Below are positions 1,884 through 30,121 of a stretch of 31,476 nt of DNA, piece after piece. Every line of letters begins with the position of its first letter. Positions within the stretch are counted from its first letter, which is position 1. The notes beneath the pieces were generated by a model that was not told where the DNA came from, searched no databases, and worked only from the letters and a program-made list of their open reading frames with translations. Origin of the DNA: a virus; IMG/VR virus record IMGVR_UViG_3300024262_000157, positions 1 to 31,476 of that record, one strand, 5' to 3'. Both the position numbers and the translations under genes were made by a program.

Positions 1884-1914
1884 ACTTCTCGTTGCAACAA
1901 ACACAAGGAGAAGT
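1884..1914 (+). promoter_or_regulatory. Possible RBS-sequestering hairpin upstream of DNA polymerase
   Basis: ACTTCTC (1884-1890) is perfectly complementary to GAGAAGT (1908-1914), with a 17-base loop. The right arm contains most of the GGAGAAG Shine-Dalgarno of the polymerase gene, whose ATG is at 1916. If it folds, it would hide the ribosome site. A 7-bp stem with this loop is modest and could be chance. Confidence 0.35.
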
Positions 1915-1915
1915 T

Positions 1916-4900
1916 ATGCAATCAGAGACGTTCATGGGAAAGCCGCTAGCCTGTTGTTTCCATGCTCACTCAGATGTAGGCAGCTTAGATGGTTCCTCAA
2001 CAGTTGATGTCATGGTTCAGCGAATGAAAGAGGTCGGCATGAGCCATGTGACCTTTACTGAGCATGGAACCCTAAACAGTGCTGCCTCAGCCTATAGAAG
2101 TGCGACGAAACATGGTCTTAAGTGCATACATGGAGCAGAGGCTTACTTATACTGGCCTGACGACAAGTATGGGGAAACTAAGACCTACCACATTACCATC
2201 TTCTTTAAGACCAAAGAAGCTTACGAGATGTACTGTAAGCTCACTCCTCTCATGTATACCAAACCACGGTTAAAGGTGGCCTTTGGAGATGCTAAGGGCT
2301 GTATCTACTGGGAAGACTTCTTGCAATTAGTTGAGAAGGGCATAGTCGTTGGAACAGCCTGTATTGGCGGGTGGCTCAACGGGCCAATTATTGAACACGG
2401 GGACATCGAAGAAGCCAGAAAACGACTAGATCTAATGATCGCTACCCTCGGGGTAGAGAGTATATATGACGAATGGATTGTTGATGACCTAACCAGCGAT
2501 ATCCAGAAAACAGATTCTGGTCTGATTAATGTAGTAAACGAAATCAAACCATGGTTCAGTCACCCTGACGTCATACGAGAAAGCAACAGAATACGTTGGG
2601 AGTGTGTAACCAAACCTGCGGGTATAAAACGTCTAGCTTCTCAAGACGCTCATTATGCCCAAAAAGAAGACAAACTGATCCAGGACAACAAACGCTACGG
2701 TTCTGACTGGATCATGAGTTTCTATCAACATATTAAGGGTGCGAAGGAATATTCTGAGCTAGCGAAAACCACCCAAGGTCTTAGTGAGTATGAAATTTCT
2801 GAGCTAATAGACAACACCCACCTATTTGCCTCTCAATTTGGCTCCTATTCGTTTCTAACGGCCAAGGAGAGGGGTTTCCTCATACCAGAGTTTAATGGCG
2901 ACAGGAGAGCCGAAATCTACTCTAGAATGGGAAAAATAAATCGCATTGACCTAAGCAATGAAATATACCGTCAACGACTAGAGTATGAAATGAATGTGCT
3001 CAGTTCAAGCCCGTTACTGGACGGTTTAAGTTACATGCTATTGGCTAATGATATTGCGCTGTTAGCTAAAGAAAACGGAATACTTGTAAACTGCCGTGGC
3101 TCTGCTGGAGGATGTTTACTGGCCTTTGGCCTTGGAATCTCAGTGACTGACCCTATTCCCTATGACTTGCCCTTTGAACGATTTTTGACAGAGGGGAGGC
3201 TTAAGGCCATGACCCCTCCAGATATTGATATTGATATATCTGATAAAGATAAACTGTTAATGCTTATGAAGAAGGTGTACGGAGATAGGATGTTGCCTAT
3301 TTCCACTGATACCCTACTTAAGCCTCGTTCAGCCATGAAAGACATTGAGCGGTATAAATTCGGCAAAGTGCGTCAATCAACAGAAATCCTGACAAAGACA
3401 ATGCCTAGTGTGCCCCAAGGAATGAACGAGTCAGACTGGTTGCTAGGCTATGAAGACGATGAAGGTACTCATGTTCCTGGTGAAATTGAGAGAAACCCCG
3501 CATTACAGAAGTACGCCAATGAAAATAAAGAGATTTGGTCTCTAGTGACTCGAATGTGCGGGGTAATGAGGCAAAAGGGAATCCACGCATGTATATGCGG
3601 TGATACCCCGGTATTCAGTGACGGAATGGTGCAGTTATTACGAAACGCCAGATTGAGCGAAGGTAAACCGATATCAGTCTGGTCGACTGGAGTTAAACCT
3701 ACGATTTCTCTTGTTCTTAACAATGGAATTTGTCTGACCTGCACTAGCGATCATCGACTAATCCTTAAAGATGGCAGAGAAGTGGAAGCACGGCATTGTC
3801 TTGGTGAAATTGTGGACTATAGGCCCTTTGGAAAATTTGACGGCGAGTTTGAACCAGGTGAAAGCGAAGCGTTTGTTGCTGGCTGGCTGCTAGGGGACGG
3901 ATCAGCCAATAAGGGATATTTTACTCCAGGGAAAGACGATGAACCTCGCGATATCTTTATCCATTGGCTTACTACTAATAATATCAAGTTCTGGTTCGAT
4001 TCGAGAAGAAGGGATGTCATACATTTCGGCAAAAACAACTTTCCTGATTGGATGAAACAGCCTTCTAGAATTTTTAATAGACGCTTCCATTCGGAATTTT
4101 GGTCTATGACCGCCTCAGCGCAGAAAGCGTATGTTAGCGGCTTCATGAGCGCAAACGGTTGGTGTCTTTCAACGAACGGAAAAATAGCAGCTAAATCGGT
4201 TTCCATCAATCTTATATCAGATTTAGCTACTTACATGAATTCCCGAAATCTCTCTACCTGTTTGATAAAACAAAAAAGTAAAGAAATTCAATGGCATAAC
4301 GGCAAATACGTTTCAAAAAACGCCTACACTCTTGAAATAGGCAAGAAATTCTATTCTACTGATGTGTTTGAATTTAAGCAACGATACAAACAACAAAACT
4401 TAGAAGCCAATTTCTCACCAGAAAGAACAAGATGCTGGAGCAAAACTCACCAGAGAAAAGATATTTATGTCAAGGAAATACAGACTGGCCCTACTACTGA
4501 AGTATTCGACTTTAACGAGCCAAAAGAAAACAAGGGGTACATCGGAGGAATTCTAGTACATAATTGCGCCGTCCTAATATCTCCAGAACCTATTCACAAT
4601 ATCATGCCAGTATATCGAGTCGGCGGAGTTAATGGTGAATTAGCTACCGGATTTGGGCCTAAAGACGTGGAATACGTTGGTGGTCTTAAGGTTGATATCT
4701 TAAGAGTATCAGCACTAGAGACGATCCATCTTTGCAATGAAAAGATAAGAGAACGAGGCGGTGAACCTCTTGAATGGGGTGAATATCCACATGTAGACGA
4801 GGTTTACCAGAAGGTCTATTGGCCGGGGGCTACCGAAGCGACATTCCAGACAAAAACCACGGGTATTACGAATTTGTGTTTACAGACTAAGCCGTGCTCA

Positions 4901-5689
4901 ATTAAGGATTTGTCAAATCTCATAGCTCTGTACCGACCTTCTTCGCTTGATTGGGAATTCAATCAGGACGGCTTTAAGGGAAATGCTGTTGAATACTATA
5001 TCCAGATAGCCCAAGGAAAAGTTAGCCCATTCTACGTTCATCCTGATATTGAACCTATATTTAAGGAAACTCTAGGTGTACCCATCTACCAAGAGAGTGT
5101 GCTTAGAACTTTCCGGGATATTGGAGGAATGAGTTACGAGCAAGCTGAAATGGTGCGGCGAGCTATTGGCAAAAAGGACATGAAACTTCTATCTGAAGCA
5201 TTTAACACCTTAGCTAAGAAATGTGAAGAACGTGGCTGGTCAGAAGATCAAATATCAGGACTTAAGGCGATGATATTGGCTAGTGCTCGGTATTCGTTCA
5301 ATAAGTCTCACTCTGCTTCATACGGCATTGTGTCTTATGCAACAGCTTATCTTAAACACTTCTACCCGCTAGAGTTCTGGTGTGCAGAGCTTACGGTTGA
5401 AGCTGAAGAAGAAGATAAGATTCGTAAGTACGCTACGGTATTGGGTGATCTAGTCGTACAGCCTCAGGTTGGTGTCTCTCACTATAAGGACTGGCTAATA
5501 CAGAATGAAAAACTCATAGCTCCCTTGGTAACTATTAAAGGCTGCGGTACGGCTCTAATGGAAGATCTCAACGTACTAATCGAAACAGAAACCCTAGAAG
5601 AACTGAACTTGCTCCCCAAGCCCATAAAAGAGAAAAAGCCTTCCAAAAGGAAGGCTGCTTTACCTAAAGAAAATACCCTACCGCTTTAG
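1916..5689 (+). CDS. dnaE: DNA polymerase III alpha subunit (DnaE-type), intein-containing
   Basis: This is the replicative C-family DNA polymerase. The ATG at 1916 is chosen over the in-frame ATG at 1892 because GGAGAAG directly precedes it. The precursor has 1257 residues; removal of the intein (559-883) leaves about 932, shorter than the ~1160 of typical bacterial DnaE, mainly at the C-terminus. The N-terminal PHP domain keeps its metal-site motifs: HAHSD (H16, H18), TEHG, a GAEAY segment and a later DAHY. The palm has PDIDID (D436, D438) and, after the intein, KVDIL (D927), giving the catalytic triad. Downstream LYRPSS, VPIYQE, RRAIGKKD and YSFNKSHSASYG are classic DnaE finger-region blocks. 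The C-terminal OB and clamp/tau-binding regions look reduced. The intein splits the conserved GIHA/C-AVLISPEP segment. The gene converges on the following minus-strand gene with a 4-base overlap of stops. Confidence 0.95.
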   Translation: MQSETFMGKPLACCFHAHSDVGSLDGSSTVDVMVQRMKEVGMSHVTFTEHGTLNSAASAYRSATKHGLKCIHGAEAYLYWPDDKYGETKTYHITIFFKTKEAYEMYCKLTPLMYTKPRLKVAFGDAKGCIYWEDFLQLVEKGIVVGTACIGGWLNGPIIEHGDIEEARKRLDLMIATLGVESIYDEWIVDDLTSDIQKTDSGLINVVNEIKPWFSHPDVIRESNRIRWECVTKPAGIKRLASQDAHYAQKEDKLIQDNKRYGSDWIMSFYQHIKGAKEYSELAKTTQGLSEYEISELIDNTHLFASQFGSYSFLTAKERGFLIPEFNGDRRAEIYSRMGKINRIDLSNEIYRQRLEYEMNVLSSSPLLDGLSYMLLANDIALLAKENGILVNCRGSAGGCLLAFGLGISVTDPIPYDLPFERFLTEGRLKAMTPPDIDIDISDKDKLLMLMKKVYGDRMLPISTDTLLKPRSAMKDIERYKFGKVRQSTEILTKTMPSVPQGMNESDWLLGYEDDEGTHVPGEIERNPALQKYANENKEIWSLVTRMCGVMRQKGIHACICGDTPVFSDGMVQLLRNARLSEGKPISVWSTGVKPTISLVLNNGICLTCTSDHRLILKDGREVEARHCLGEIVDYRPFGKFDGEFEPGESEAFVAGWLLGDGSANKGYFTPGKDDEPRDIFIHWLTTNNIKFWFDSRRRDVIHFGKNNFPDWMKQPSRIFNRRFHSEFWSMTASAQKAYVSGFMSANGWCLSTNGKIAAKSVSINLISDLATYMNSRNLSTCLIKQKSKEIQWHNGKYVSKNAYTLEIGKKFYSTDVFEFKQRYKQQNLEANFSPERTRCWSKTHQRKDIYVKEIQTGPTTEVFDFNEPKENKGYIGGILVHNCAVLISPEPIHNIMPVYRVGGVNGELATGFGPKDVEYVGGLKVDILRVSALETIHLCNEKIRERGGEPLEWGEYPHVDEVYQKVYWPGATEATFQTKTTGITNLCLQTKPCSIKDLSNLIALYRPSSLDWEFNQDGFKGNAVEYYIQIAQGKVSPFYVHPDIEPIFKETLGVPIYQESVLRTFRDIGGMSYEQAEMVRRAIGKKDMKLLSEAFNTLAKKCEERGWSEDQISGLKAMILASARYSFNKSHSASYGIVSYATAYLKHFYPLEFWCAELTVEAEEEDKIRKYATVLGDLVVQPQVGVSHYKDWLIQNEKLIAPLVTIKGCGTALMEDLNVLIETETLEELNLLPKPIKEKKPSKRKAALPKENTLPL
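3590..4564 (+). other. Intein in DnaE with partly decayed LAGLIDADG endonuclease (325 aa)
   Basis: The intein starts at Cys in CICGDTPVF (block A), has TSDH as block B, VFDFNEP as block F and ends GGILVHN before extein Cys. Excision gives the normal DnaE sequence GIHACAVLISPEP, which fixes both boundaries. The centre holds a LAGLIDADG-type endonuclease: the first motif VAGWLLGDGS has its catalytic Asp. The second motif, YVSGFMSANG, has Asn where the catalytic Asp is expected. Splicing residues look intact, while DNA cleavage is probably impaired. It is nested in the polymerase gene and shares its reading frame. Confidence 0.93.
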
Positions 5690-8177: not shown

Positions 8178-8942
8178 TTACATAAATGGGTCAGCGGTTC
8201 TGGCTCGATAGAGGTCGAGCATACTGAATCTCTCGCTACAAGCAGTGCAACGGTTGGGTAATCTGGACTTCATGAACAGCTTTGCCTCACCGCAATTCCA
8301 GCACTTCACCACTGTAGCTTGGTCTATCGGTTCTCCTGATTTTAACAAATCCTTAAGATCACTGAGAAGTTCCGACTTTGCTAGTAGTCGCTGCTCTTGA
8401 GATGGCAGATTATAGAAATGCTTTCTTCCGGCTATTGAATCTTTGTAGTGTTCCGGCAATTTCTTAATCTCGAAGGATTTAGTTAGATCGATTGCAGGAA
8501 ATACTATGCACTCGGTATTACATGGCTTCACTGTAAGAGAAGCAGCAATAACCTTGGTTTTAGACAAGAGTTTATCTTTTCTTTCTACTGTGGCCCCCTC
8601 TACGGAAAAACCTACAGGAAAGCCAGGATTCTGTGCAGAGTATTTAATAAGACCTTCAGCAGCAGAAGCGTTTGGATGTTCTGGTGTAGCTAATGAGCCG
8701 TAAATATAGATAAAAGGCTTCTTGACTCGATTCCAGCATTTTATTTCAAACTGGTCTTCACAGTCTTGAGATTTGTAGATTTTCTTGGCCTTCTTAACTT
8801 GACCAAGAATGTCAAAACATCTATCTGACTTATGTTCATCATTGATGAATCTTAAATCAGAGATATCAGCCCCATCTATACTCAGCACCTCACCGACACG
8901 GTCAGGAGTCTCGGTTGCTAGAATTCCGTAAATGTCAAACAT
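8178..8942 (-). CDS. Prohead (capsid maturation) protease with C-terminal zinc ribbon
   Basis: This is probably the serine protease that processes head proteins during capsid maturation. The N-terminal half shows the prohead-protease pattern: LSIDGADIS (20-28), then NDEHKS with candidate catalytic His37, then DILGQVKKAKKI (44-55). Next come HPNASAAEGLIKY and PVGFSVEG with candidate nucleophile Ser113. A later segment, KVIAASLTVKPCNTECIVF, matches the usual strand before the end of these domains. I cannot tell which family (S77, S78 or S80 type) it belongs to. The C-terminal part adds a zinc ribbon, C214-x2-C217 and C232-x2-C235, which is unusual for a simple prohead protease. The ATG at 8942 has GAGG 8-9 bases upstream. 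It leads the long unknown protein in a minus-strand group. Confidence 0.75.
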   Translation of the reverse strand: MFDIYGILATETPDRVGEVLSIDGADISDLRFINDEHKSDRCFDILGQVKKAKKIYKSQDCEDQFEIKCWNRVKKPFIYIYGSLATPEHPNASAAEGLIKYSAQNPGFPVGFSVEGATVERKDKLLSKTKVIAASLTVKPCNTECIVFPAIDLTKSFEIKKLPEHYKDSIAGRKHFYNLPSQEQRLLAKSELLSDLKDLLKSGEPIDQATVVKCWNCGEAKLFMKSRLPNRCTACSERFSMLDLYRARTADPFM

Positions 8943-8980
8943 TGGATGCCTCGCATAAAGAATCGTTAGTTCTAAAGCGA

Positions 8981-8986
8981 ATTATA
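8981..8986 (-). promoter_or_regulatory. Candidate -10 element (TATAAT) upstream of prohead protease gene
   Basis: On the minus strand TATAAT lies 38 bases before the protease start, in the 72-base gap after the upstream gene. No convincing -35 sequence is found 16-18 bases further up. It could be a phage-type promoter that needs only a -10, or it could be chance. Confidence 0.3.
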
Positions 8987-9014
8987 GATTCCATAACGAG
9001 GCCGAACGATAATC

Positions 9015-9527: not shown

Positions 9528-9628
9528 TTTGGCTGGCCTCCCAGTTTTTGTTTTGCCGTCTTCATTATCAGGGAGAGTAGACTCAAAGAGAAGATAATAA
9601 TTACGAGTATTACTTAGGAGATAATGGT

Positions 9629-10486
9629 ATGTCTATCGACCCTAACCGACTATCCGGTACAAAAGATCCGTCTGAAGCACAGACGATACCTACGGGGGTC
9701 TATCCTCCTGGACCATATTCTCCTGCCGGTGTCTTCAGTAACGATGTTCACGACAATCTATTGAAGAGCAAGGGATTTAAAGCGATCCACTATCGACATG
9801 CTCTTAATCCCATACGTCGTACACCCGATGAAGGCGTATTGCTAGACCAGATGGATATGACAGGTTACAGGTTTTACGACCCCAAAGAACTGTACATTGT
9901 CCCTCAGAATCTATCTTGGGAAGATTCCTTTATGGTACATGGTGTCCATGGCAAACACACCATGACAATAAACCACACCGGGAAGTACACTGACGAATCC
10001 GGTGGACGAGTTTTTCTTAGATCTGGTGATTTGATAGTTCTTGAGGGAGTAGACACTCCTTTGGTTATGATGGAAGATCTTATCGAATATCCTACAAGTG
10101 GAATAAATCGTCTTCGATTTCCGGTTTATGGCGTGGACTATATGGCAGATTCCACTAGGCGATACGAAGAAGGTAACGATTTCCTTGTGATAAATGGCGA
10201 AATTGTGTGGACCCCTTCACCGCTTGGAGCCACCAAGCCTGGTTTCGGTCATCCGATACGAAATCAGCCAACCCTAAATGGTGGAACCACTCTCTCCTGC
10301 GTATATTGGACGAAGCCATTTCTTGTAGTTATTGATACTCCCAGAGTATTTAGAATGGTATGGTCTAATACAATAGCTAATGCCGGAGAAACATCACAAG
10401 CAACGTATCTTCCGGGTTCTGCTGTGGTGGGCTTGTCTTGGCTCCATCCACACGCTAAACTTAATGAAGATCTATGGCCAACATAA
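9629..10486 (+). CDS. Probable virion structural protein (285 aa)
   Basis: The ATG at 9629 has TAGGAGA seven bases upstream. The start region is Pro/Gly-rich (PTGVYPPGPYSPAGVF). The rest alternates short beta strands with Gly and aromatic residues and contains little predicted helix, for example FLRSGDLIVLEGVDTPL. No catalytic or metal-binding motif is seen. It opens the rightward head/neck/tail cluster. The beta-rich character and position point to a structural part, perhaps a head or baseplate-associated protein. The exact role is unknown. Confidence 0.6.
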   Translation: MSIDPNRLSGTKDPSEAQTIPTGVYPPGPYSPAGVFSNDVHDNLLKSKGFKAIHYRHALNPIRRTPDEGVLLDQMDMTGYRFYDPKELYIVPQNLSWEDSFMVHGVHGKHTMTINHTGKYTDESGGRVFLRSGDLIVLEGVDTPLVMMEDLIEYPTSGINRLRFPVYGVDYMADSTRRYEEGNDFLVINGEIVWTPSPLGATKPGFGHPIRNQPTLNGGTTLSCVYWTKPFLVVIDTPRVFRMVWSNTIANAGETSQATYLPGSAVVGLSWLHPHAKLNEDLWPT

Positions 10487-17941: not shown

Positions 17942-17970
17942 TCACTGCGCCCTTGCACTCAATACAATTT

Positions 17971-17987
17971 CTTGTTAACCTAACAAG
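17971..17987 (+). terminator. Hairpin between modification enzyme and RNA ligase genes
   Basis: CTTGTTA (17971-17977) and TAACAAG (17981-17987) form a perfect 7-bp stem with a three-base loop, followed by GTCTTTT. The stem is AT-rich, so a terminator would be weak. It may instead shape the leader of the RNA ligase mRNA: AACCT in its centre is complementary to part of the ligase ribosome site AGGAGGTT. Confidence 0.4.
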
Positions 17988-18009
17988 GTCTTTTAACACA
18001 GGAGGTTGT

Positions 18010-19107
18010 ATGTCTTCTTTGATTGTCAAGGTAGTTAAGATAACAGAAATCGTACCGCACTCCAATGCAGATAGGCTTGAAGTCGCTCTGATTGGAGGAT
18101 GGAGATGTATTGTTGCAAAAGAACGGTTTAAAGTCGGTGATCTGGCGATCTATATCCCGATTGACTCAGTTCTATCGGAAGCAGTTGAAGGTAAACTGTT
18201 TACTGATAGCAAAGTGAAACCAAGCAAGGGACGAATCAAATCTGTCAAGATTAGAGGAGAAATCAGTCAAGGTCTTCTCGCTCCTTTGGATATCCTGGAT
18301 AACCCCGAATCTAAAAAAGAAGGCGATGACGTAGCCGCTGAACTTGGTATCACGAAGTATGAACCGCCTGATCCTTCTATGGCAGGATACAAGCAGTTCC
18401 GTTCTAAGGCTCCACGTAAGAGGAACCATAACTTCAAGAAATACACTGACATAGAGAACCTCCGATATTACGGTGAAGTCTTTACAGAAGGGGAATTCGT
18501 CCAGATTACTGAGAAACTCCACGGAACGTCGGCAAGGTTTAGCTGGGCCTTGAAGGACAAGTCTTTACTGAACTGGTGGCAGAGATTCCTGTTCTGGCTA
18601 GGAACAGTCTTCAACAAGAAATCGTGGCAGTATACTTGGGTGGTTGGTTCACGGAACATGGATCTTAACCCTGAACTATTTGATAACATCTACACACGAG
18701 TAGCTGACTTCTATTCGTTGAAACGAATTCTGAATTACGGGGAAGCTGTTTATGGCGAAATTGTTGGTGAAGGAATCCAGAAAGGCTTCGACTACGGTTT
18801 GAAGGGAGATGATAAGCGTCTGTACCTGTACGATGTTATGGTTGACGGGAAGTACCTTAACCACGAAGCATTCTTGCAGTTCTGTAGTCAACGGTATCTA
18901 CCGGTAGTACCGCAGTTGTATCGAGGAGTTTACAAACCAGAGCTAATAAAGCTATTGGCTTCTGGCCCATCCAAGCTTACTAAGAACCATATCAGAGAAG
19001 GCATTGTGGTTAAGCCTGTCTCTGAAGAGAACTGCAAGATTGGTCGAAAAGTCCTCAAATATGTGAGTGATGAGTACCTGTTGAAGGATACCACCGATTT
19101 CCACTAA
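18010..19107 (+). CDS. RNA ligase, DRB0094 family (365 aa)
   Basis: This is an ATP-dependent RNA ligase that seals RNA breaks through a lysyl-AMP intermediate. The ATG at 18010 follows GGAGG, and the open frame further upstream (from 17953) lacks a ribosome site. The N-terminal ~110 residues form the OB-like domain typical of this family (VVKITEIVPHSNADRLEVAL, then GDLAIYIPIDSVL, KIRGEISQGLLAPLDIL). The nucleotidyltransferase motifs follow: motif I EKLHGTSARF with lysine K169, motif III region VYGEIVGEGIQKG, LYLYDVMVDGKYL, motif IV REGIVVKP and motif V LKYVSDEYLLK. All expected catalytic residues appear present. Phage RNA ligases commonly counter tRNA-cleaving host defences. Here no tRNA or polynucleotide kinase gene is adjacent, so its target is unknown. 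Confidence 0.88.
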   Translation: MSSLIVKVVKITEIVPHSNADRLEVALIGGWRCIVAKERFKVGDLAIYIPIDSVLSEAVEGKLFTDSKVKPSKGRIKSVKIRGEISQGLLAPLDILDNPESKKEGDDVAAELGITKYEPPDPSMAGYKQFRSKAPRKRNHNFKKYTDIENLRYYGEVFTEGEFVQITEKLHGTSARFSWALKDKSLLNWWQRFLFWLGTVFNKKSWQYTWVVGSRNMDLNPELFDNIYTRVADFYSLKRILNYGEAVYGEIVGEGIQKGFDYGLKGDDKRLYLYDVMVDGKYLNHEAFLQFCSQRYLPVVPQLYRGVYKPELIKLLASGPSKLTKNHIREGIVVKPVSEENCKIGRKVLKYVSDEYLLKDTTDFH

Positions 19108-19122
19108 GACTTGCCCAAATCA

Positions 19123-19164
19123 ACTCCTGGGTTGACTATAACTATATTTAGTCAATCTAGGAGT
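19123..19164 (+). promoter_or_regulatory. Long hairpin sequestering the terminase ribosome-binding site
   Basis: ACTCCTGGGTTGACTA (19123-19138) is complementary to TAGTCAATCTAGGAGT (19149-19164) over all 16 positions, with two of the pairs being G-U in RNA. The loop is 10 bases. The 3' arm contains AGGAG (19159-19163), the Shine-Dalgarno for the ATG at 19170. As RNA this stem would fully hide the ribosome site. As DNA, the inner TTGACTA/TAGTCAA dyad could also be an operator. No T-run follows, so it is not a standard terminator. Confidence 0.75.
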
Positions 19165-19169
19165 CTCCA

Positions 19170-22100
19170 ATGTTTAAAACAGAGCTAGAGCGCAAGAAAC
19201 TTGAAGCTAAGTTAGACGATCTTTATGAGAATCTGCTTTTCACTCCTTGCCAGACAAGAGATGAACTAAAGCAGTGGATCATCACCTTCCTTGGCATCGA
19301 TCTTCCAGACCAGACTCTTTCCGAAGACAGCAACAGTAACCCAATTGATTTTATCTGGGCTGTCTACCAGTGCGCCCTTACAGGTAAGGGCAACAACTCC
19401 TTCGTGGTTGCGGCTAGCCGAAATAGCTGTAAATGTCTCGCAGAAGGAACGGTGGTGGCTACGCCTTCTGGTCCAAGATGCATAGAAGACATCGAGGTTG
19501 GCGATACCGTTTACGACGAAAACTCCAACCCAATAACTGTGACCCACGTACACGATCAAGGTATCCAGAACTGTGTTGAACTTGTGTGCAATAAGACTGG
19601 GCAGACCTTAGCTGTCTGTACAGTAGAACACAAATGGATGTTAAAAGACCAAACCGTGCGGAAAGTCAAGGATTTTCCTCAGAACACCGAACTGCTTATC
19701 AGGCATCCCCACCAGACGTTCGGCCCAATAAACGATTCAGATGGATATATCTGGGGCTGTTTGTGCGAATCTCATTCAAGAATGACTCTTGATGATTTGA
19801 TTAATTACGACAGAGAGTATCTATGTGACTTCCTGGCTGGATTATTCGATACATACGGAATAGATGATCGGGGAATCTTCAAGTTTTCTAGCTATTCATT
19901 AAGAATAACGTCTATAGCGAGAAACTTACTCCTGTATCTTTATCAGGTTCAGATCCCTGTTTTATCTAACTACACCCTAAATCGCTCTGTTCACGATTTG
20001 GAATTGAATCTAAAAGTCGAGTCACATGAAAGAGCTTATAAGGACATATATCGTAGACGATGTAATCCAAAATTCACAAATACGACACCCAGTGAAGAGA
20101 GCGCAGTAAAAGTTAGTCTGCGAATAGTGGGAGAAAAACATTGCTACGATCTCACCGTTGATTCCCCTAACTCTCTGTATTGCTTACAGAATGGCCTAGT
20201 TACTCATAATACCTTGGCCGCTGCTATCATCGAATTCATGCTGATGCTCCACTTCGGTAGAGACATTATTCATCTAGCCGCTATTCTTGACCAGTCTGAA
20301 GCCGCTATTAAATATCTGAATAGATTCCTACGAATACCAGCAGTCAAGAAATATTCAAAGACAGACAACAAACGCTTAAAGGCGATTGCAAATCTACCAC
20401 TAAGCGAATATCGACCAACTAATGGCTCAGAGCTTCGTGTTCTTGTTGCAAGCAAGGAATCCTCTAATGCTCAGCGAGCCTCCTGTCTGCCAGGAAATGC
20501 TGAGATTCTAATAAAGAACGGTGAAAGCATTAGCTGGTGTACCGCAGAAGAGGTTTTCTCACTAATCCAAAAAGATACAGAAATCTCCTGTTTAAGCGTA
20601 AATCCAGAGTCAAGACTAACGGAATGGGCCAACATCGTAGCTGCAATGAAGCAAGAAAAAGAGGAGCGAGTAACCGTCGATGGTCAAGGATTCAGTTTTA
20701 CCGTAACCCCCGATCATCTGGTCGCAACTCCTTCGAAATCCGGAATAATATACAAAAAAGCAGCCGACCTTAACGTAGGCGAATTCATACTCACAACTCC
20801 AGAGCGACCCATATTGCATCAGAAACAGCGTTACCCTGATTTTGAAGAAGACGGGTTTTCTTTTCAAGATCTCATGGACGGTCACATGCTGGGGGACGGC
20901 GGAGTCTACCGAAGACCTAAGAACAACGCCAGATTTCAGATGTCCAAAACTACCGCAGCTGAAAGCTACTTGACCTGGCTATCCGACAGAATGAAAGATG
21001 TTTTACCCATAAAGATGTTCGACTCAAAGAGCGGCTATACCGGACAGCGACTGCTCCGAGTGGCTTCTGGCTGTTCCGCTTCATTAAACGCAACAAGAGG
21101 GCGATGGTATCCCGGCCAATCACGCTTCAAGCGTTTACCTGACGATCTTGAATTGACTTTTCAGAAACTTGCTATCTGGATTTGCGACGATGGAATATCA
21201 GGATTAAGGCGAATCTGTTGTGCAAGCTACAGCCAAGAAGAAACTGAGATACTGTGTAAAAAAATAAACAATCTTGTAGGATTTGATTGTGCATCTCTAT
21301 CTTTTACGAAAAAGGGAAAAACACGGTACCCGGATATAGCTCTGTCTTGGCCCCAAGATAAGCGAGAGGTGTTCTATCATCTTATTTCATACATTCATCC
21401 GTATTATCGCTATAAGCTGAGGAATACGACTACGACATGCATTGGCTGCGGAACAGACTTCCACAGGCACAGTGCTGAAGCTAAATGCAATTCTTGCCGT
21501 TTTTCAGACAGAAAAACTCAACAAAGAAAAGTGACTAGAAAGAGCTTTCTTATCGAGAAAGCCTCGCCCTTTGTTTATGATTTCGAAGTCGCGGACAACC
21601 ACAATTTCGTGGCTTATCGCTGTAACTCAGTGTTATTACACAACTGTCTTATATACGATGAAGTCGATCTCTTGGACAAGAGCATTCTTTCAGAATCTGC
21701 CATGATTGGTGACCCTGACAGAAATGGAAAACCACCAATCTTCGTGTATTTATCCTCTAGAAAGTCAGCTTCTGGCCCTATTCAGGAGAAGATTGACCAA
21801 AGTGCGGATGAAAAGAACGGAATCGAACTTCATAAGTGGTCCGGCATTGACCTAATGAAGAAGTGCGAGACATCTGTTCACAAGCCGCTACTCCCTAAGG
21901 TGGCTATTTACATCAATAAGGAAACACTGGAACAGCGAACCGAGGATGAATACAACGCGGTACTGGAAGAATTCAAGCCACAGTACGAACGGATTGAAGC
22001 GTTTGCTGGTTGTGTTGAATGTCCAGCGTTCCTAGTGTGTAGAGCTAAAGCTCCAAACCAGGAAAGTGAATCGTCTATTCTCCGAGACATTCCCTTCATC

Positions 22101-24287
22101 CGAACGATTGTTCGAGAAACTGGTGATATCGAGCAAATTAAAGCTCAGATTCTCAACCAGAAACCAGAAAGTACAGGTACAGTCTTCAACAAGTTCTCAA
22201 GAAGCCTACATGTGAGATCTCTGGAAGACTGCTACTATTTCGCGTATGGCGTTAAGCCTGTGAAACCCTTGGAGAAAACAGCATTTATCCATGAGCTTAG
22301 ACTGAATGGCTGGAAACTGATATGCGGGGTGGATTTCGGGTATATCGACCCGGCTGCGGCTGTCTTGATTGCGTATCATTCAAAATTTGATAAACTAATC
22401 GTACTGCATACGGAAATGTGTCCAGGGTATTCTAATCAGGATTGGCTGGTTTACGTAAAAGACACTATCTTCGATGTTTATGGCTTTGATCTCCTATGTC
22501 CTGATACTGCGGATAAGTCAAGCCCAGCTGTGGCTGGAAGACTTGGAATGCCAGCCAGAAATAAGAAGCCGTTTAAGATAGATAGCGGAGTCAGTTGGCT
22601 TCGCGCAAGGCTGTGGTCTGTTGATAGAAGACTGGCCTCTTTGGTGGTGCTGAACGATCCTCGTAACGAACCTCTGATGAAGAGTTTCGAACAATGGCAA
22701 TACAAGAAAGGTCCGATGGGCTTCATGTACGGAGTGTTTGAAGAAGATACCTTCGCGACCCATTGTTTTTCTCCCGACACCCTGGTCGAGACTGCATCTG
22801 GATTCAAGCGAATAGATGAAATCTCTGTAGGCGAACTCGTTTTAACTAAGGAAAAAGTCTATCGCCCTGTGACCAAAGTTTTTAAGAGAAAATACGAAGG
22901 CGAAATGGTGAAGATCTCTGCTTACGGTAAGGAGCCTCTACTGTGTACCCCGAACCATAACATCTGGACAGGCCGGTGGGAGCGTTCAAATGAGGGTCAG
23001 AAAACGGGCCAGCTAGCGCATAAGGGGAATCAGTACACTGAAGCAGGCGATCTATCTCCCACAATTAAGAACGCCAAAGCAAGAGCTACCGTAATTTACA
23101 GAGTACCGGAATTTGATGACACCAAAATCACGTTAAACCTACAAGAATTCGCACTTCCCGGTAGATACATGATCGAAAAAGACCGGTTTACAACAAACAC
23201 GGGATACCAGGGAAAGAAAACTAGTTATCCGAATACTATTGAAGTTGACTATAGACTGTGTTTTATCTTCGGTTACTTTGCCGCTGAAGGCTCTTGTTCC
23301 AAGAAAGCTGGTATAGTAGACTTCGCCTCACACAAAAGAGAGAGCAAGTTCAGGCAGTTCTGTAGCTCCTATTTTAATACGTTGGATCTCCGCTCTGTAG
23401 AGAGGAAGACTAGCGACAAAGGGGTCCGTCTCTGTTTATATTCTTCTATTTTTACGAGAGTTTTCGACAGTCTTTGCTATAACACAGAAAGAGACAAGGT
23501 TCTCCCTCACTTTTTTAGAGGACTCGGCAGGAAAGAGGCTGTTTATCTTCTTGCCGGACTTTTCTTCGGTGATGGATGTTTTTCTGATAACATTAGGATA
23601 AACCTGACCTCTAAACAATTAATCCTTGAGGCTTTGCATCTTTTAACGAAACTGGGAATTTCCGCACTTTTTAGGAAAATCCACAAAGCTGGCAGATTCC
23701 CGTGCGATCAGGGTAGCCAGGTGAAGGACCAGTATGGAATCAGTCTTAATAGAACAGAATCTCAGAAGTTTTTGCAAATTATTGGCGAATACGAAGACTT
23801 GTCTCTTATGTTGAAGGGCAAAACGGTAAGAATAGACACTCCTAAAACGAATTCATGCAAAAGCCGTCATGTTGATGGAGAAACTCATTACCAATTGAGA
23901 TCTATCGACAAAGTATCTGGCTGGAGTGGCTATGTATACAATCTCGAAGTAGATGAGCATCACTCATACATTGCAAATGGGATTTGTGTAAAAAACTGTC
24001 TTGATTCTCTCAGATATTCGATTGATCCTTTTGTTGTTAGCTCTACAACTAAGTATTCTATGGATACGACAGGAGTAACGAGACGTCTACCAACAGAACT
24101 AGAAGCCAAGATTGTTGTTACTTCAGCCGAAATATCTCTAAGCAGTCCAGAGAGTATGATGAGTACGATACGAGAACAATATAAGGATTTGTATCACATA
24201 GACCTTGAATCTCGTAACGCACAAGAGGATAATAAACAAAGTGATACCGAAGTAAAAAACCGAGGTAGCTTCCTTTTTAGCTTCTGA
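19170..24287 (+). CDS. terL: Terminase large subunit with three inteins
   Basis: This is the DNA-packaging motor (ATPase plus headful nuclease). The precursor has 1705 residues. Removing inteins at 89-347, 439-825 and 1199-1609 leaves 648, a normal TerL size. In the spliced protein, the Walker A is ASRNSCK/TLAAA (split by intein 1). The Walker B is LIYDEVD (D830, E831), directly after intein 2, followed by a likely coupling segment FVYLSSRKSASG. The RNase H-like nuclease has GVDFGY (D1055), CPDTADK (D1112) and, right after intein 3, CLDSLRY (D1612). A Cys cluster CVECPAFLVC (before intein 3) may bind a metal or support folding, as in some large-phage terminases. The ATG at 19170 follows AGGAG that lies in a long hairpin. 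The next gene starts 14 bases after the stop, leading to the portal. Confidence 0.93.
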   Translation: MFKTELERKKLEAKLDDLYENLLFTPCQTRDELKQWIITFLGIDLPDQTLSEDSNSNPIDFIWAVYQCALTGKGNNSFVVAASRNSCKCLAEGTVVATPSGPRCIEDIEVGDTVYDENSNPITVTHVHDQGIQNCVELVCNKTGQTLAVCTVEHKWMLKDQTVRKVKDFPQNTELLIRHPHQTFGPINDSDGYIWGCLCESHSRMTLDDLINYDREYLCDFLAGLFDTYGIDDRGIFKFSSYSLRITSIARNLLLYLYQVQIPVLSNYTLNRSVHDLELNLKVESHERAYKDIYRRRCNPKFTNTTPSEESAVKVSLRIVGEKHCYDLTVDSPNSLYCLQNGLVTHNTLAAAIIEFMLMLHFGRDIIHLAAILDQSEAAIKYLNRFLRIPAVKKYSKTDNKRLKAIANLPLSEYRPTNGSELRVLVASKESSNAQRASCLPGNAEILIKNGESISWCTAEEVFSLIQKDTEISCLSVNPESRLTEWANIVAAMKQEKEERVTVDGQGFSFTVTPDHLVATPSKSGIIYKKAADLNVGEFILTTPERPILHQKQRYPDFEEDGFSFQDLMDGHMLGDGGVYRRPKNNARFQMSKTTAAESYLTWLSDRMKDVLPIKMFDSKSGYTGQRLLRVASGCSASLNATRGRWYPGQSRFKRLPDDLELTFQKLAIWICDDGISGLRRICCASYSQEETEILCKKINNLVGFDCASLSFTKKGKTRYPDIALSWPQDKREVFYHLISYIHPYYRYKLRNTTTTCIGCGTDFHRHSAEAKCNSCRFSDRKTQQRKVTRKSFLIEKASPFVYDFEVADNHNFVAYRCNSVLLHNCLIYDEVDLLDKSILSESAMIGDPDRNGKPPIFVYLSSRKSASGPIQEKIDQSADEKNGIELHKWSGIDLMKKCETSVHKPLLPKVAIYINKETLEQRTEDEYNAVLEEFKPQYERIEAFAGCVECPAFLVCRAKAPNQESESSILRDIPFIRTIVRETGDIEQIKAQILNQKPESTGTVFNKFSRSLHVRSLEDCYYFAYGVKPVKPLEKTAFIHELRLNGWKLICGVDFGYIDPAAAVLIAYHSKFDKLIVLHTEMCPGYSNQDWLVYVKDTIFDVYGFDLLCPDTADKSSPAVAGRLGMPARNKKPFKIDSGVSWLRARLWSVDRRLASLVVLNDPRNEPLMKSFEQWQYKKGPMGFMYGVFEEDTFATHCFSPDTLVETASGFKRIDEISVGELVLTKEKVYRPVTKVFKRKYEGEMVKISAYGKEPLLCTPNHNIWTGRWERSNEGQKTGQLAHKGNQYTEAGDLSPTIKNAKARATVIYRVPEFDDTKITLNLQEFALPGRYMIEKDRFTTNTGYQGKKTSYPNTIEVDYRLCFIFGYFAAEGSCSKKAGIVDFASHKRESKFRQFCSSYFNTLDLRSVERKTSDKGVRLCLYSSIFTRVFDSLCYNTERDKVLPHFFRGLGRKEAVYLLAGLFFGDGCFSDNIRINLTSKQLILEALHLLTKLGISALFRKIHKAGRFPCDQGSQVKDQYGISLNRTESQKFLQIIGEYEDLSLMLKGKTVRIDTPKTNSCKSRHVDGETHYQLRSIDKVSGWSGYVYNLEVDEHHSYIANGICVKNCLDSLRYSIDPFVVSSTTKYSMDTTGVTRRLPTELEAKIVVTSAEISLSSPESMMSTIREQYKDLYHIDLESRNAQEDNKQSDTEVKNRGSFLFSF
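19434..20210 (+). other. TerL intein 1, in the Walker A motif (259 aa)
   Basis: It begins at Cys in CLAEGTVVATPSG, has TVEH as block B, CYDLTVDS as block F and ends GLVTHN. The following extein residue is Thr. Excision restores NSCKTLAAA, the P-loop Lys-Thr, which fixes the ends. It is the smallest of the five. A single recognisable LAGLIDADG-like motif, FLAGLFDTYG, remains, and the first motif region (YIWGCLCESHS) is degenerate. The endonuclease is likely decayed or reduced, while the splicing residues look intact. Confidence 0.92.
20484..21644 (+). other. TerL intein 2, before Walker B, with LAGLIDADG endonuclease and zinc ribbon (387 aa)
   Basis: It begins at Cys in CLPGNAEIL, has TPDH as block B, FVYDFEVAD as block F and ends VLLHN before extein Cys. 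Excision joins NAQRAS to CLIYDEVD. The endonuclease has both acidic motifs, MDGHMLGDGG and LAIWICDDG, and looks active. Near its C-terminal side is a zinc-ribbon-like CIGCGTDFHRHSAEAKCNSC (nt about 21437-21500), unusual within an intein and probably involved in DNA recognition. Confidence 0.93.
22764..23996 (+). other. TerL intein 3, at the last nuclease motif, with LAGLIDADG endonuclease (411 aa)
   Basis: It begins at Cys in CFSPDTLVETASGFKRI, has TPNH as block B, YVYNLEVDEHHSYIANG as block F, and ends ICVKN before extein Cys. The penultimate residue is Lys rather than the usual His, so Asn cyclisation may need other residues. The endonuclease motifs CFIFGYFAAEGS and LAGLFFGDGCF keep Glu and Asp, so it is probably active. 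Excision restores FATHCLDSLRYSID, the region of the third nuclease acid. Confidence 0.92.
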
Positions 24288-27292: not shown

Positions 27293-27329
27293 ATCCTCTT
27301 TTTAGATCAATTAAAAAGAGGATCTTTTT
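27293..27329 (+). terminator. Rho-independent terminator that also carries the next gene's RBS
   Basis: ATCCTCTTTTT (27293-27303) and AAAAAGAGGAT (27313-27323) form a perfect 11-bp stem with a nine-base loop. CTTTTT follows. This is a good intrinsic terminator for the portal transcript. The 3' arm includes AGAGGA, the only ribosome site for the gene starting at 27330. The structure can therefore both stop transcription and hide translation start in any read-through RNA. Confidence 0.8.
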
Positions 27330-27728
27330 ATGACAGCGAAGATATTCACCCTTCCTGGGGTTACCCTACCATGTGAACCCGAAGCAATTGACTCTATGCC
27401 CGAGCTGAGCAACTCGATAAGCAATCTTGGGATAACATCCTCAAAAGCTATGGATTTTGCCCAAAGACTTACGAAGATTACTGAAAAGATTTACACTCTT
27501 TACAGTAACAACCAAGAAGCAGTCGGATTTGATCCGGCTTTTTCTTTGTTATTCACTACCGCACTGGTTAATATGGCAACAGACGAACTAATGAAATTAG
27601 GTCTGTGCAGCGCCGTAAACCAGAGCTTGTTCGAAACTTGCAGACAAACAGCAATAAAAGGTCTTCAAGAAGTTGAATATATTGAGACTTTTGACGAAGA
27701 TTTTGACATAACAGGAGAAGATAAATGA
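27330..27728 (+). CDS. Hypothetical protein (132 aa)
   Basis: The ATG at 27330 directly follows the terminator-like hairpin; AGAGGA within the hairpin arm is the ribosome site. The product is mostly helical with an N-terminal short beta segment (KIFTLPGVTLPCE) and an acidic tail (DEDFDITGEDK). I see no known motif; several Cys are scattered. It overlaps the next gene by an ATGA junction and heads the small-gene cluster before the sigma-like gene. Function unknown. Confidence 0.6.
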   Translation: MTAKIFTLPGVTLPCEPEAIDSMPELSNSISNLGITSSKAMDFAQRLTKITEKIYTLYSNNQEAVGFDPAFSLLFTTALVNMATDELMKLGLCSAVNQSLFETCRQTAIKGLQEVEYIETFDEDFDITGEDK

Positions 27729-28024: not shown

Positions 28025-28247
28025 TCTTTTCAGTGGCGTTAAAGCCAAGACCAAGAAACAAGAAAACAAAGAAGGCATGGAGAACTTCAGAAAGCAGATG
28101 TACGACTTCATGACTGCGGCTGAACTAATCAATAACCGCCTGGATGTACTAGAGAAAGGTCTAACCTATCTCTTGTCCAAAGATGAAGATTTCATCAAGC
28201 ACCACGCTCAAGAGGAAGCCAATGAAAAACCAGAAACCCCAGAATAA
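28017..28247 (+). CDS. Small coiled-coil hypothetical protein (76 aa)
   Basis: The ATG at 28017 lies inside the end of the previous gene, after AGGAG. The 76 residues are nearly all helical and charged (MENFRKQMYDFMTAAELINN and then RLDVLEKGLTYLLSK), probably a coiled coil, ending in an acidic Pro-containing tail. It overlaps the sigma-like gene start by 26 bases. It could partner the proteins around it. No family is recognised. Confidence 0.6.
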   Translation: MGDLFSGVKAKTKKQENKEGMENFRKQMYDFMTAAELINNRLDVLEKGLTYLLSKDEDFIKHHAQEEANEKPETPE

Positions 28248-29787
28248 TGCCTTTAAGGAAAGGTGTCTCTTGGGACTGGACGAACCAGAACAACTGGAAG
28301 GCTTCTGCCCTCATGGATTAGCCAGAGCGCAATGGTATTCCGATAATCCTGGTTCATCCGCTTCAGAGGAGCAAGCCGCGCCTGGTTGTTTCGTGCCTGG
28401 TACGCTAGTGAAAACTCTGTTCGGCTTTAAGCCAATTGAAGAGATTCTACCTGGCGACAAAGTCTGGACTCATAAGGGGCGCTTTCGTAAAGTAAAGTAC
28501 GTTACCAACCGCCAGTACGACGGAATAGTCTACAAATGGATTGGCGGTAATTCGATTGAGAGTAATACGCTGTTCGACAGTCCCTGCTGGATGACAGGGG
28601 ACCATTTGGTCTACACTCCGTTCAATACTACGGAGTGGCAAAAGAGCGAAAGTCTCTTTGAAATCTTCGATGAATGTGCGGAAAATATACCGTCGTTTGC
28701 TGCGGCAAAACCGGTTGTCTGCGACATCCCGTTTCGACTCCCTTTCACTCTAGAAAGATTTGAAGCATATAAGGAAGATATCCTCTGGTTATGCGGACTC
28801 TGGCTTAACAGAGGACGAGTGAGCGAAAACGATTTCTTTACCATCTCAGTAAATCGGCTCATGGTGAACAAAGTAGACGAGAAACTGAGAAGACTCCTTA
28901 CCATAATGAACGGCTGGGTAGAAATTGAGACTGAAGACGAGTACATCGTTTTCATCTGTCACCACAAGGTCTTAAATTCTTGGTTCAAAAATCATTTCGG
29001 TGGCTCCTACAGCAGTAAGCGACAGAAATGCGTTCCTAAAGAATTCTGGCTTATTCCTGTTTCGGAATTTGAACAGGTCTATCAGGGAATGACCGATGCC
29101 ATTTACCTTAGAGATGGAGGCAGTCTTTCCCGATTCTTTACTGATTCCAATAAGTTAGCGGCGTGGCTTCATACCATGCAAGGGAATAAGGGTATTTATC
29201 GACCTCTGCCTAAGCGAGGAATGGGAGATCTTGACACTTATGTTCTGGATATGCAGGAAGATAAGGATAAGTGGTACGTGGACATGGGTTCTTATTTCAT
29301 GTTCAAGCCAACTTGGTGCATGAGAAGAAACTATTCGGGTAAAGTATATGACCTAACAGTTGAAGACGACGCATCCTTTGATGTTGGTTTCATCGTACAT
29401 AACTGTAATTACTCCGTTATCTCGGAAGATGAAGACGGATACTGCTTTTACAAGATGATGAAGAATAAGGAAGGGCGAACATTCTCTGATGAAGAGATTG
29501 CTATCAGATTAGGATTAACTTCCTCTCAAGTAAGAACTATATACACCAGAGCATTGGCTAAGCTACAGAATACGGAAACCATCAAAGAAATAGATGAACT
29601 CCGCAAAGCTGGCTGTCTGTTTGATCAGCCAGAAGCAGATGACGACATCTACTATCCTGATGTAGTTTCGGATTCAGCTGATGGCGGGTATTGTGAAGAA
29701 GTTGAAGATACAGGAGGCGGAACCTCTAAGAGAAGAGGACGTCCAAGAATGTCCGGCAAACTTGCTATCGTCAACCCTGACGCTTGA
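28222..29787 (+). CDS. Sigma-region-4-like DNA-binding protein with intein
   Basis: The ATG at 28222 (after AGAGGAAG) is preferred to the in-frame ATG at 28183. The precursor has 521 residues. Excising the intein (56-394) gives a small protein of about 182. Its C-terminal half has a helix-turn-helix typical of sigma-factor region 4: FSDEEIAIRLGLTSSQVRTI, then YTRALAKLQ (about 421-450). The N-extein has GFCPHGLARAQWY and the splice junction Cys followed by CNYSVISEDEDGYC. These Cys/His residues could form a small metal site split by the intein. A basic GTSKRRGRPRM patch near the C-terminus, of AT-hook type (RGRP), may add DNA contacts. It is likely a phage transcription regulator or sigma-like factor for late genes. 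The exact partner is unknown. Confidence 0.75.
   Translation: MKNQKPQNNAFKERCLLGLDEPEQLEGFCPHGLARAQWYSDNPGSSASEEQAAPGCFVPGTLVKTLFGFKPIEEILPGDKVWTHKGRFRKVKYVTNRQYDGIVYKWIGGNSIESNTLFDSPCWMTGDHLVYTPFNTTEWQKSESLFEIFDECAENIPSFAAAKPVVCDIPFRLPFTLERFEAYKEDILWLCGLWLNRGRVSENDFFTISVNRLMVNKVDEKLRRLLTIMNGWVEIETEDEYIVFICHHKVLNSWFKNHFGGSYSSKRQKCVPKEFWLIPVSEFEQVYQGMTDAIYLRDGGSLSRFFTDSNKLAAWLHTMQGNKGIYRPLPKRGMGDLDTYVLDMQEDKDKWYVDMGSYFMFKPTWCMRRNYSGKVYDLTVEDDASFDVGFIVHNCNYSVISEDEDGYCFYKMMKNKEGRTFSDEEIAIRLGLTSSQVRTIYTRALAKLQNTETIKEIDELRKAGCLFDQPEADDDIYYPDVVSDSADGGYCEEVEDTGGGTSKRRGRPRMSGKLAIVNPDA
28387..29403 (+). other. Intein in sigma-like protein, decayed endonuclease (339 aa)
   Basis: It begins at Cys in CFVPGTLVKTLFGFKPIEE, has TGDH as block B, KVYDLTVED as block F and ends FIVHN before extein Cys. 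The central region has only traces of LAGLIDADG motifs: ILWLCGLWLNRG with Arg where the first Asp should be, and YQGMTDAIYLRDGG as a possible second. The endonuclease is probably inactive, while splicing residues are intact. Confidence 0.92.
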
Positions 29788-30121
29788 AGTCTAGCCGGAC
29801 ATTCTTAAAGAACTGATCTGCACTAACAATAACAGCAGCGCGATCCCTCAGACGAAAGATATACCAGAACCAGAACTGCCAAAAACCCCATTGAAAATAA
29901 ATGGTTATGCGATTGGCCTCTGTATCATAGTGCATCTCTAGTTGCTGAAACTCATCACCAAACAGGTTGACAAGCATACTGCGAAAGAGATGCAGGGTGT
30001 ATGATGGTCCGATCGCAGTTCCGTCAACTAGATTGCCTTTTCCTGAAAGGTAATCCTTGCATTGACCAAAGAACTGGCTGATTTCTTCCATTTCAGACGA
30101 GTTCTGGCTCTTTGACTTCAT
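29771..30121 (-). CDS. Hypothetical protein with aromatic-rich hydrophobic stretch (116 aa)
   Basis: The ATG at 30121 follows AAGGAAG and lies within the end of the upstream minus gene (29-base overlap). Residues about 70-95 form a very aromatic run (ITIYFQWGFWQFWFWYIF) flanked by charged residues. This could be a membrane segment or a buried beta/aromatic patch. The rest is mixed helix and strand. It converges on the sigma-like gene with 17 bases of overlap. No known family. Confidence 0.6.
   Translation of the reverse strand: MKSKSQNSSEMEEISQFFGQCKDYLSGKGNLVDGTAIGPSYTLHLFRSMLVNLFGDEFQQLEMHYDTEANRITIYFQWGFWQFWFWYIFRLRDRAAVIVSADQFFKNVRLDFKRQG

Follow-up and report, generated by a model that had tools for sequence, protein, structure and literature searches.

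How can a phage terminase gene be translated when its ribosome-binding site is folded into a long hairpin? The question is raised by a 31,476-base viral contig (the whole stretch analysed, hereafter the window) from a tailed phage to which no named phage is closely related, in which a stem-loop precedes the gene for the terminase large subunit (Table 1). The terminase exteins match Myxococcus phage Mx1 only, at 31%, and the portal shows remote similarity to Mx1 and SPO1-like phages; also present in the window are genes for DNA polymerase III alpha and an RNA ligase, an hmUDK-like gene (5-hmdU DNA kinase helical domain) and a sigma-like gene. Single-sequence searches of viral contigs with the terminase, either its N-terminus or the full protein with its inteins, and with the portal gave no match, an exact DNA search with the 3′ arm of the hairpin gave none, and no DNA similarity to the window was found in the phage collection or among genome contigs. 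Two of the three terminase inteins (19170-24287) have LAGLIDADG domains, one further intein lies in the sigma-like gene (28183-29787), and the DNA polymerase III alpha gene (1892-5689) probably holds another, seen as an intein-like insert between polymerase domains. Intein-like inserts also occur in the terminases of the relatives L035, L053, L008 and L013.

Table 1. Positions of the hairpins, promoter-like element and genes discussed, in window coordinates.
Feature	Positions	Strand	Detail
RBS-hiding hairpin with internal loop, before the minus-strand gene starting at 8942	8948..9002	-	TATAAT-N6-TAG (8986-8972) in loop
RBS-hiding hairpin of ligase gene, 14 bp, 3 G-U	17962..18011	+	buries AGGAGG; TACAAT (17963-17968) in 5′ arm
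RNA ligase gene (DRB0094 family, TIGR02306)	18010..19107	+	likely start ATG 18010
16-bp stem-loop before terminase gene	19123..19164	+	Shine-Dalgarno AGGAG (19159-19163) in 3′ arm 19149-19164
Promoter-like element TATAAC-N6-TAG in hairpin	19137..19151	+	predicted start ~19150, second base of 3′ arm
Terminase large subunit gene, three inteins	19170..24287	+	extein tblastn matches annotated Myxococcus phage Mx1 terminase
RBS-hiding hairpin after portal gene, before gene at 27330	27293..27323	+	U-run in window only

The arms ACTCCTGGGTTGACTA (19123-19138) and TAGTCAATCTAGGAGT (19149-19164) pair contiguously at 16 of 16 positions, two of the pairs being G-U, and enclose a 10-nt loop, TAACTATATT (19139-19148); the terminase ATG, at 19170, follows the stem after a gap of 5 bases. 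An earlier sequence-only reading of this DNA had described full-length pairing with AGGAG wholly inside the 3′ arm, and this is exactly what we find. That reading had proposed folding the leader as a check: by computed folding the stem alone reaches −23.3 kcal/mol with a shuffle z of −8.3, and the leader (19110-19200) has a z of −5.2. In dinucleotide shuffles of the whole window with loops of up to 40 nt, stems of at least 16 pairs with no more than two G-U are expected 0.02 times per window on both strands, and 0.3 times if any number of G-U is admitted; the terminase stem is the longest on the plus strand of the window. The hairpin is genuine, and a chance fold is ruled out. No Rfam family matches at gathering score anywhere in the window. 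The two G-U pairs had further been taken as a sign of selection for an RNA fold; they are present, but the argument is weak because the arms differ at just two positions, both pairing-preserving transitions on this strand, and the chance that both differences keep pairing on the sense strand is, by rough estimate, about 1 in 9. Elsewhere in the window, a 16-bp inverted repeat with a loop of 36 and two G-U on the minus strand (29742-29809) lies where the sigma-like gene ends, in the overlap between two convergent genes.

Opening the terminase ribosome site was computed to cost 13.9 kcal/mol when the 5′ arm is present and 1.9 kcal/mol when it is missing, as in RNA starting at 19150 (P = 0.015 relative to shuffles of the upstream sequence), which supports the occlusion proposed from the letters alone. 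That reading went on to suggest that terminase translation may need a trigger. The likeliest trigger, and the best supported of the options considered, is one that it had left out: the start site of the transcript, set by a promoter inside the hairpin. Messages from upstream, running through the hmUDK-like and RNA ligase genes, would carry both arms, form the 16-bp stem and hide AGGAG, so that, judging from the computed folding, terminase would hardly be translated from them. A message begun at the promoter-like element within the hairpin would lack the 5′ arm, leaving the site open and allowing terminase to be made. The hairpin would thereby act as an insulator like that of T4 gene e, with terminase translation set by where the message starts and read-through messages staying silent. 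We give this reading a probability of about one half; the read-through from upstream and the low translation of long messages are its predicted components.

The element is placed as this reading would have it. Its −10 spans the end of the 5′ arm and the loop, and the 3′ arm opens with its TAG; because the predicted start lies where the 3′ arm begins, RNA made there would be without the 5′ arm. TATAAY-N6-TAG, a pattern chosen partly with the terminase site in view, matches three times in the window, each time 33-54 nt upstream of a gene start, against 0.52 expected. Two of these are exact copies of TATAAT-N6-TAG, both upstream of genes, and the terminase copy is the one-base variant TATAAC. The 187-kb contig of the closest relative, L053, holds three copies of TATAAT-N6-TAG, all of them 39-60 nt upstream of starts and all within the 7% of sequence that is non-coding, and (T/C/G)ATAAT-N6-TAG precedes the sheath gene in the window, L053, L035 and L036 alike. 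By this placement, TATAAT-N6-TAG marks gene starts in this lineage. With one mismatch allowed, its frequency in the window does not exceed chance; the last −10 base of the terminase element, C, is such a mismatch, and no sigma-70 −35 partner was found for it. We dropped a sigma-70 promoter with a −35 in the terminase leader as a candidate, the sigma-70 score being unremarkable in that 19% of random stretches reach it. Promoter activity at 19137-19151 is putative.

We then asked how often sequence upstream of a predicted start hides a ribosome site, taking each non-coding TATAAT that lies 25-75 nt before a gene start and comparing the opening cost with and without that upstream sequence. Of the 12 TATAAT promoters in the set, which does not include terminase, 6 become costlier to open by at least 6 kcal/mol (Fisher P = 6 × 10−5 versus shuffles), and 5 of these 6 individually reach P of at most 0.015 versus shuffles; by comparison, 16.5% of other genes with intergenic leaders show such a gain (P = 0.008 versus the TATAAT promoters). 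The pattern recurred when the comparison was repeated in G001 (4/14, P = 0.0016) and G010 (2/2, P = 0.03), and was not found in G011 (0/1) and G012 (0/4). One of the four G001 cases, a GH19 lysozyme-like gene, has an occlusion gain of +13.9 kcal/mol. Lineage-wide use of promoter-bearing RBS-hiding hairpins is likely rather than established, since a simple home-made caller supplied the gene starts of the relatives and the P values rest on small sets. A broader claim, that a whole large-phage lineage unrelated to T4 silences structural and lysis genes on read-through messages by such hairpins as standard, swapping them with terminators at the same boundary during evolution, is tentative, with the odds somewhat against it.

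Individual leaders give further cases of RBS-hiding hairpins. Before the minus-strand gene starting at 8942, upstream sequence raises the opening cost of the leader from 4.6 to 13.0 kcal/mol (P = 0.005), and the arrangement matches that at terminase. The G008 and G003 orthologs share this layout with other sequences, making three genomes with the window. Orthologs in L035, L037 and L040 have the TATAAT and no hairpin over the ribosome site. For the ligase gene the cost rises from 4.8 to 11.0 kcal/mol. In the closest relative (L059 1409-1807, minus strand), a 21-bp hairpin with a loop of 3, the longest of its kind seen, directly precedes a small gene on the minus strand, whose RBS region is buried.

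The hairpin after the portal gene speaks for a different account of the terminase leader. It is present at this boundary in all relatives examined (L053, L035, L037, L040, L041, L047, L005 and L013), with differing arm sequences and with the Shine-Dalgarno inside the 3′ arm in nearly all; its conservation is of position and fold only, the MAFFT alignments being out of register. It has no promoter inside, so hairpins without an embedded promoter do occur in the lineage, and the terminase site, whose occlusion is well supported by folding, could likewise be freed on the long message itself, by a protein, by a small RNA or by RNase III cleavage of the stem that releases the 3′ arm. However, the hairpins showed neither a conserved loop nor a conserved protein-binding motif, 16 bp makes a short stem for RNase III, and such a trigger leaves the promoter-like element at terminase unused. 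We consider this account unlikely, though it is the strongest of the competitors.

The leader hairpin is absent before terminase in every relative found: in L005 terminase follows the hmUDK gene after 9 nt, in L012 a 2OG-Fe(II) oxygenase-like gene (8336-8989) lies between the two, and in L013/L014 terminase comes directly after the preceding gene. None of the relatives seen has the RNA ligase gene at this position either, a remote ligase (28%) lying elsewhere in the L053 contig. The terminase hairpin thus belongs to an insertion, consisting of the ligase gene with its own RBS-hiding hairpin and then the terminase hairpin. L035 has a 145-aa gene (9596-10033) at the boundary where the window has the ligase and L012 the oxygenase-like gene, and on these sequences the hmUDK-terminase boundary looks to be a hot spot for gene gain. 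Lack of conservation in relatives was one half of what the sequence-only reading took to count against it, and the outcome is divided: the hairpin is missing before terminase in all of them, but RBS-hiding hairpins turn up at other places in the lineage, and one has persisted at its gene boundary while its sequence changed.

In the two closest relatives, L053 (sheath 67% identical) and L035 (61%), intrinsic terminators directly precede terminase, at the boundary where the window has the ligase gene and hairpin. Under the insulator reading, the hairpin would shield terminase from read-through, a job apparently done in L053 and L035 by these terminators. Their position also suits a stem that serves as a boundary element for the ligase mRNA (3′-end protection, processing or weak termination) and buries the terminase site as a side effect of tight spacing, as does the 13-bp post-portal stem of L005, the exception in leaving GGAGG just outside. 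Against this, the terminase stem ends in CTCCAATG, with no U-run, and no terminator is called in 19000-19260, so that we rejected it as an intrinsic terminator. Moreover, strong stems in four genomes overlap the Shine-Dalgarno zone 8 times against 0.6 expected with shifted gene starts, a contrast that overstates the case because hairpins prefer intergenic DNA anyway, and that counts among the 8 an apparent RBS hairpin in G001 (105392) at a doubtful gene, otherwise given no weight. A boundary element is improbable, and we rank it next.

Translational coupling, in which ribosomes finishing the ligase gene would open the stem for the terminase start, is suggested by the adjacency of the two genes on one strand and had been among the triggers first proposed. 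However, the ligase stop (19105-19107) lies 15 nt short of the stem, which begins at 19123, and a ribosome at that stop should not reach the stem, given the size of its footprint, so coupling is very unlikely. Least probable of all is a DNA inverted repeat acting as an operator or as a packaging or nuclease recognition site, for although the DNA is symmetric at 14 of 16 positions and terminase adjoins, both asymmetric positions keep sense-strand RNA pairing, the 3′ arm coincides with the Shine-Dalgarno, and likewise-placed hairpins at other genes share no sequence.

The insulator reading has a close model in T4. Long early transcripts of gene e, encoding lysozyme, fold and are translated ~100-fold less, whereas transcripts from the late promoters within the structure are open (PMC3014915); the soc, 49 and I-TevI leaders are grouped with gene e as having an inhibitory helix on long early transcripts and late promoters inside it (reviewed in PMC3014915). 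The terminase leader resembles gene e in its Shine-Dalgarno, which by computed folding lies in a stable helix on upstream-started transcripts, in a promoter-like element whose predicted start would give a short transcript without the 5′ strand, and in a structure found in some relatives and missing in others; the G001 lysozyme-like gene shares the layout as T4 lysozyme does. It differs in that T4 uses the late promoter TATAAATA with gp55, whereas the element here is TATAAT/C-N6-TAG. Neither the window nor the relatives examined contain the T4 late promoter, and the window leader therefore falls outside the T4 set. The gene, too, is different, being a terminase, and the phage is only remotely like SPO1 and Mx1.

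A second parallel is offered by the leaders of T4-group homing endonucleases (I-TevI, II, III, segB, mobE), in which an RBS hairpin silences the inserted gene on polycistronic messages (PMC2988022). Here, similarly, an RBS hairpin precedes both the inserted ligase gene and its downstream neighbour, but the insert encodes an RNA ligase and the essential gene downstream is hidden as well. The IS10 and IS50 transposase genes are protected from read-through in a like manner: transcripts entering from outside fold so that the transposase start is hidden, and those from the element's own promoter do not; unlike at terminase, that helix derives from the transposon end sequence.

If the insulator reading is true, promoter-bearing hairpins protect against read-through outside T4 as well, whether this evolved there or was retained, and would serve many genes including terminase. 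The locus would also offer a case of terminators and RBS hairpins replacing each other. A promoter inside a hairpin would then be a simple sequence rule for predicting the timing classes of genes in uncultured phages.
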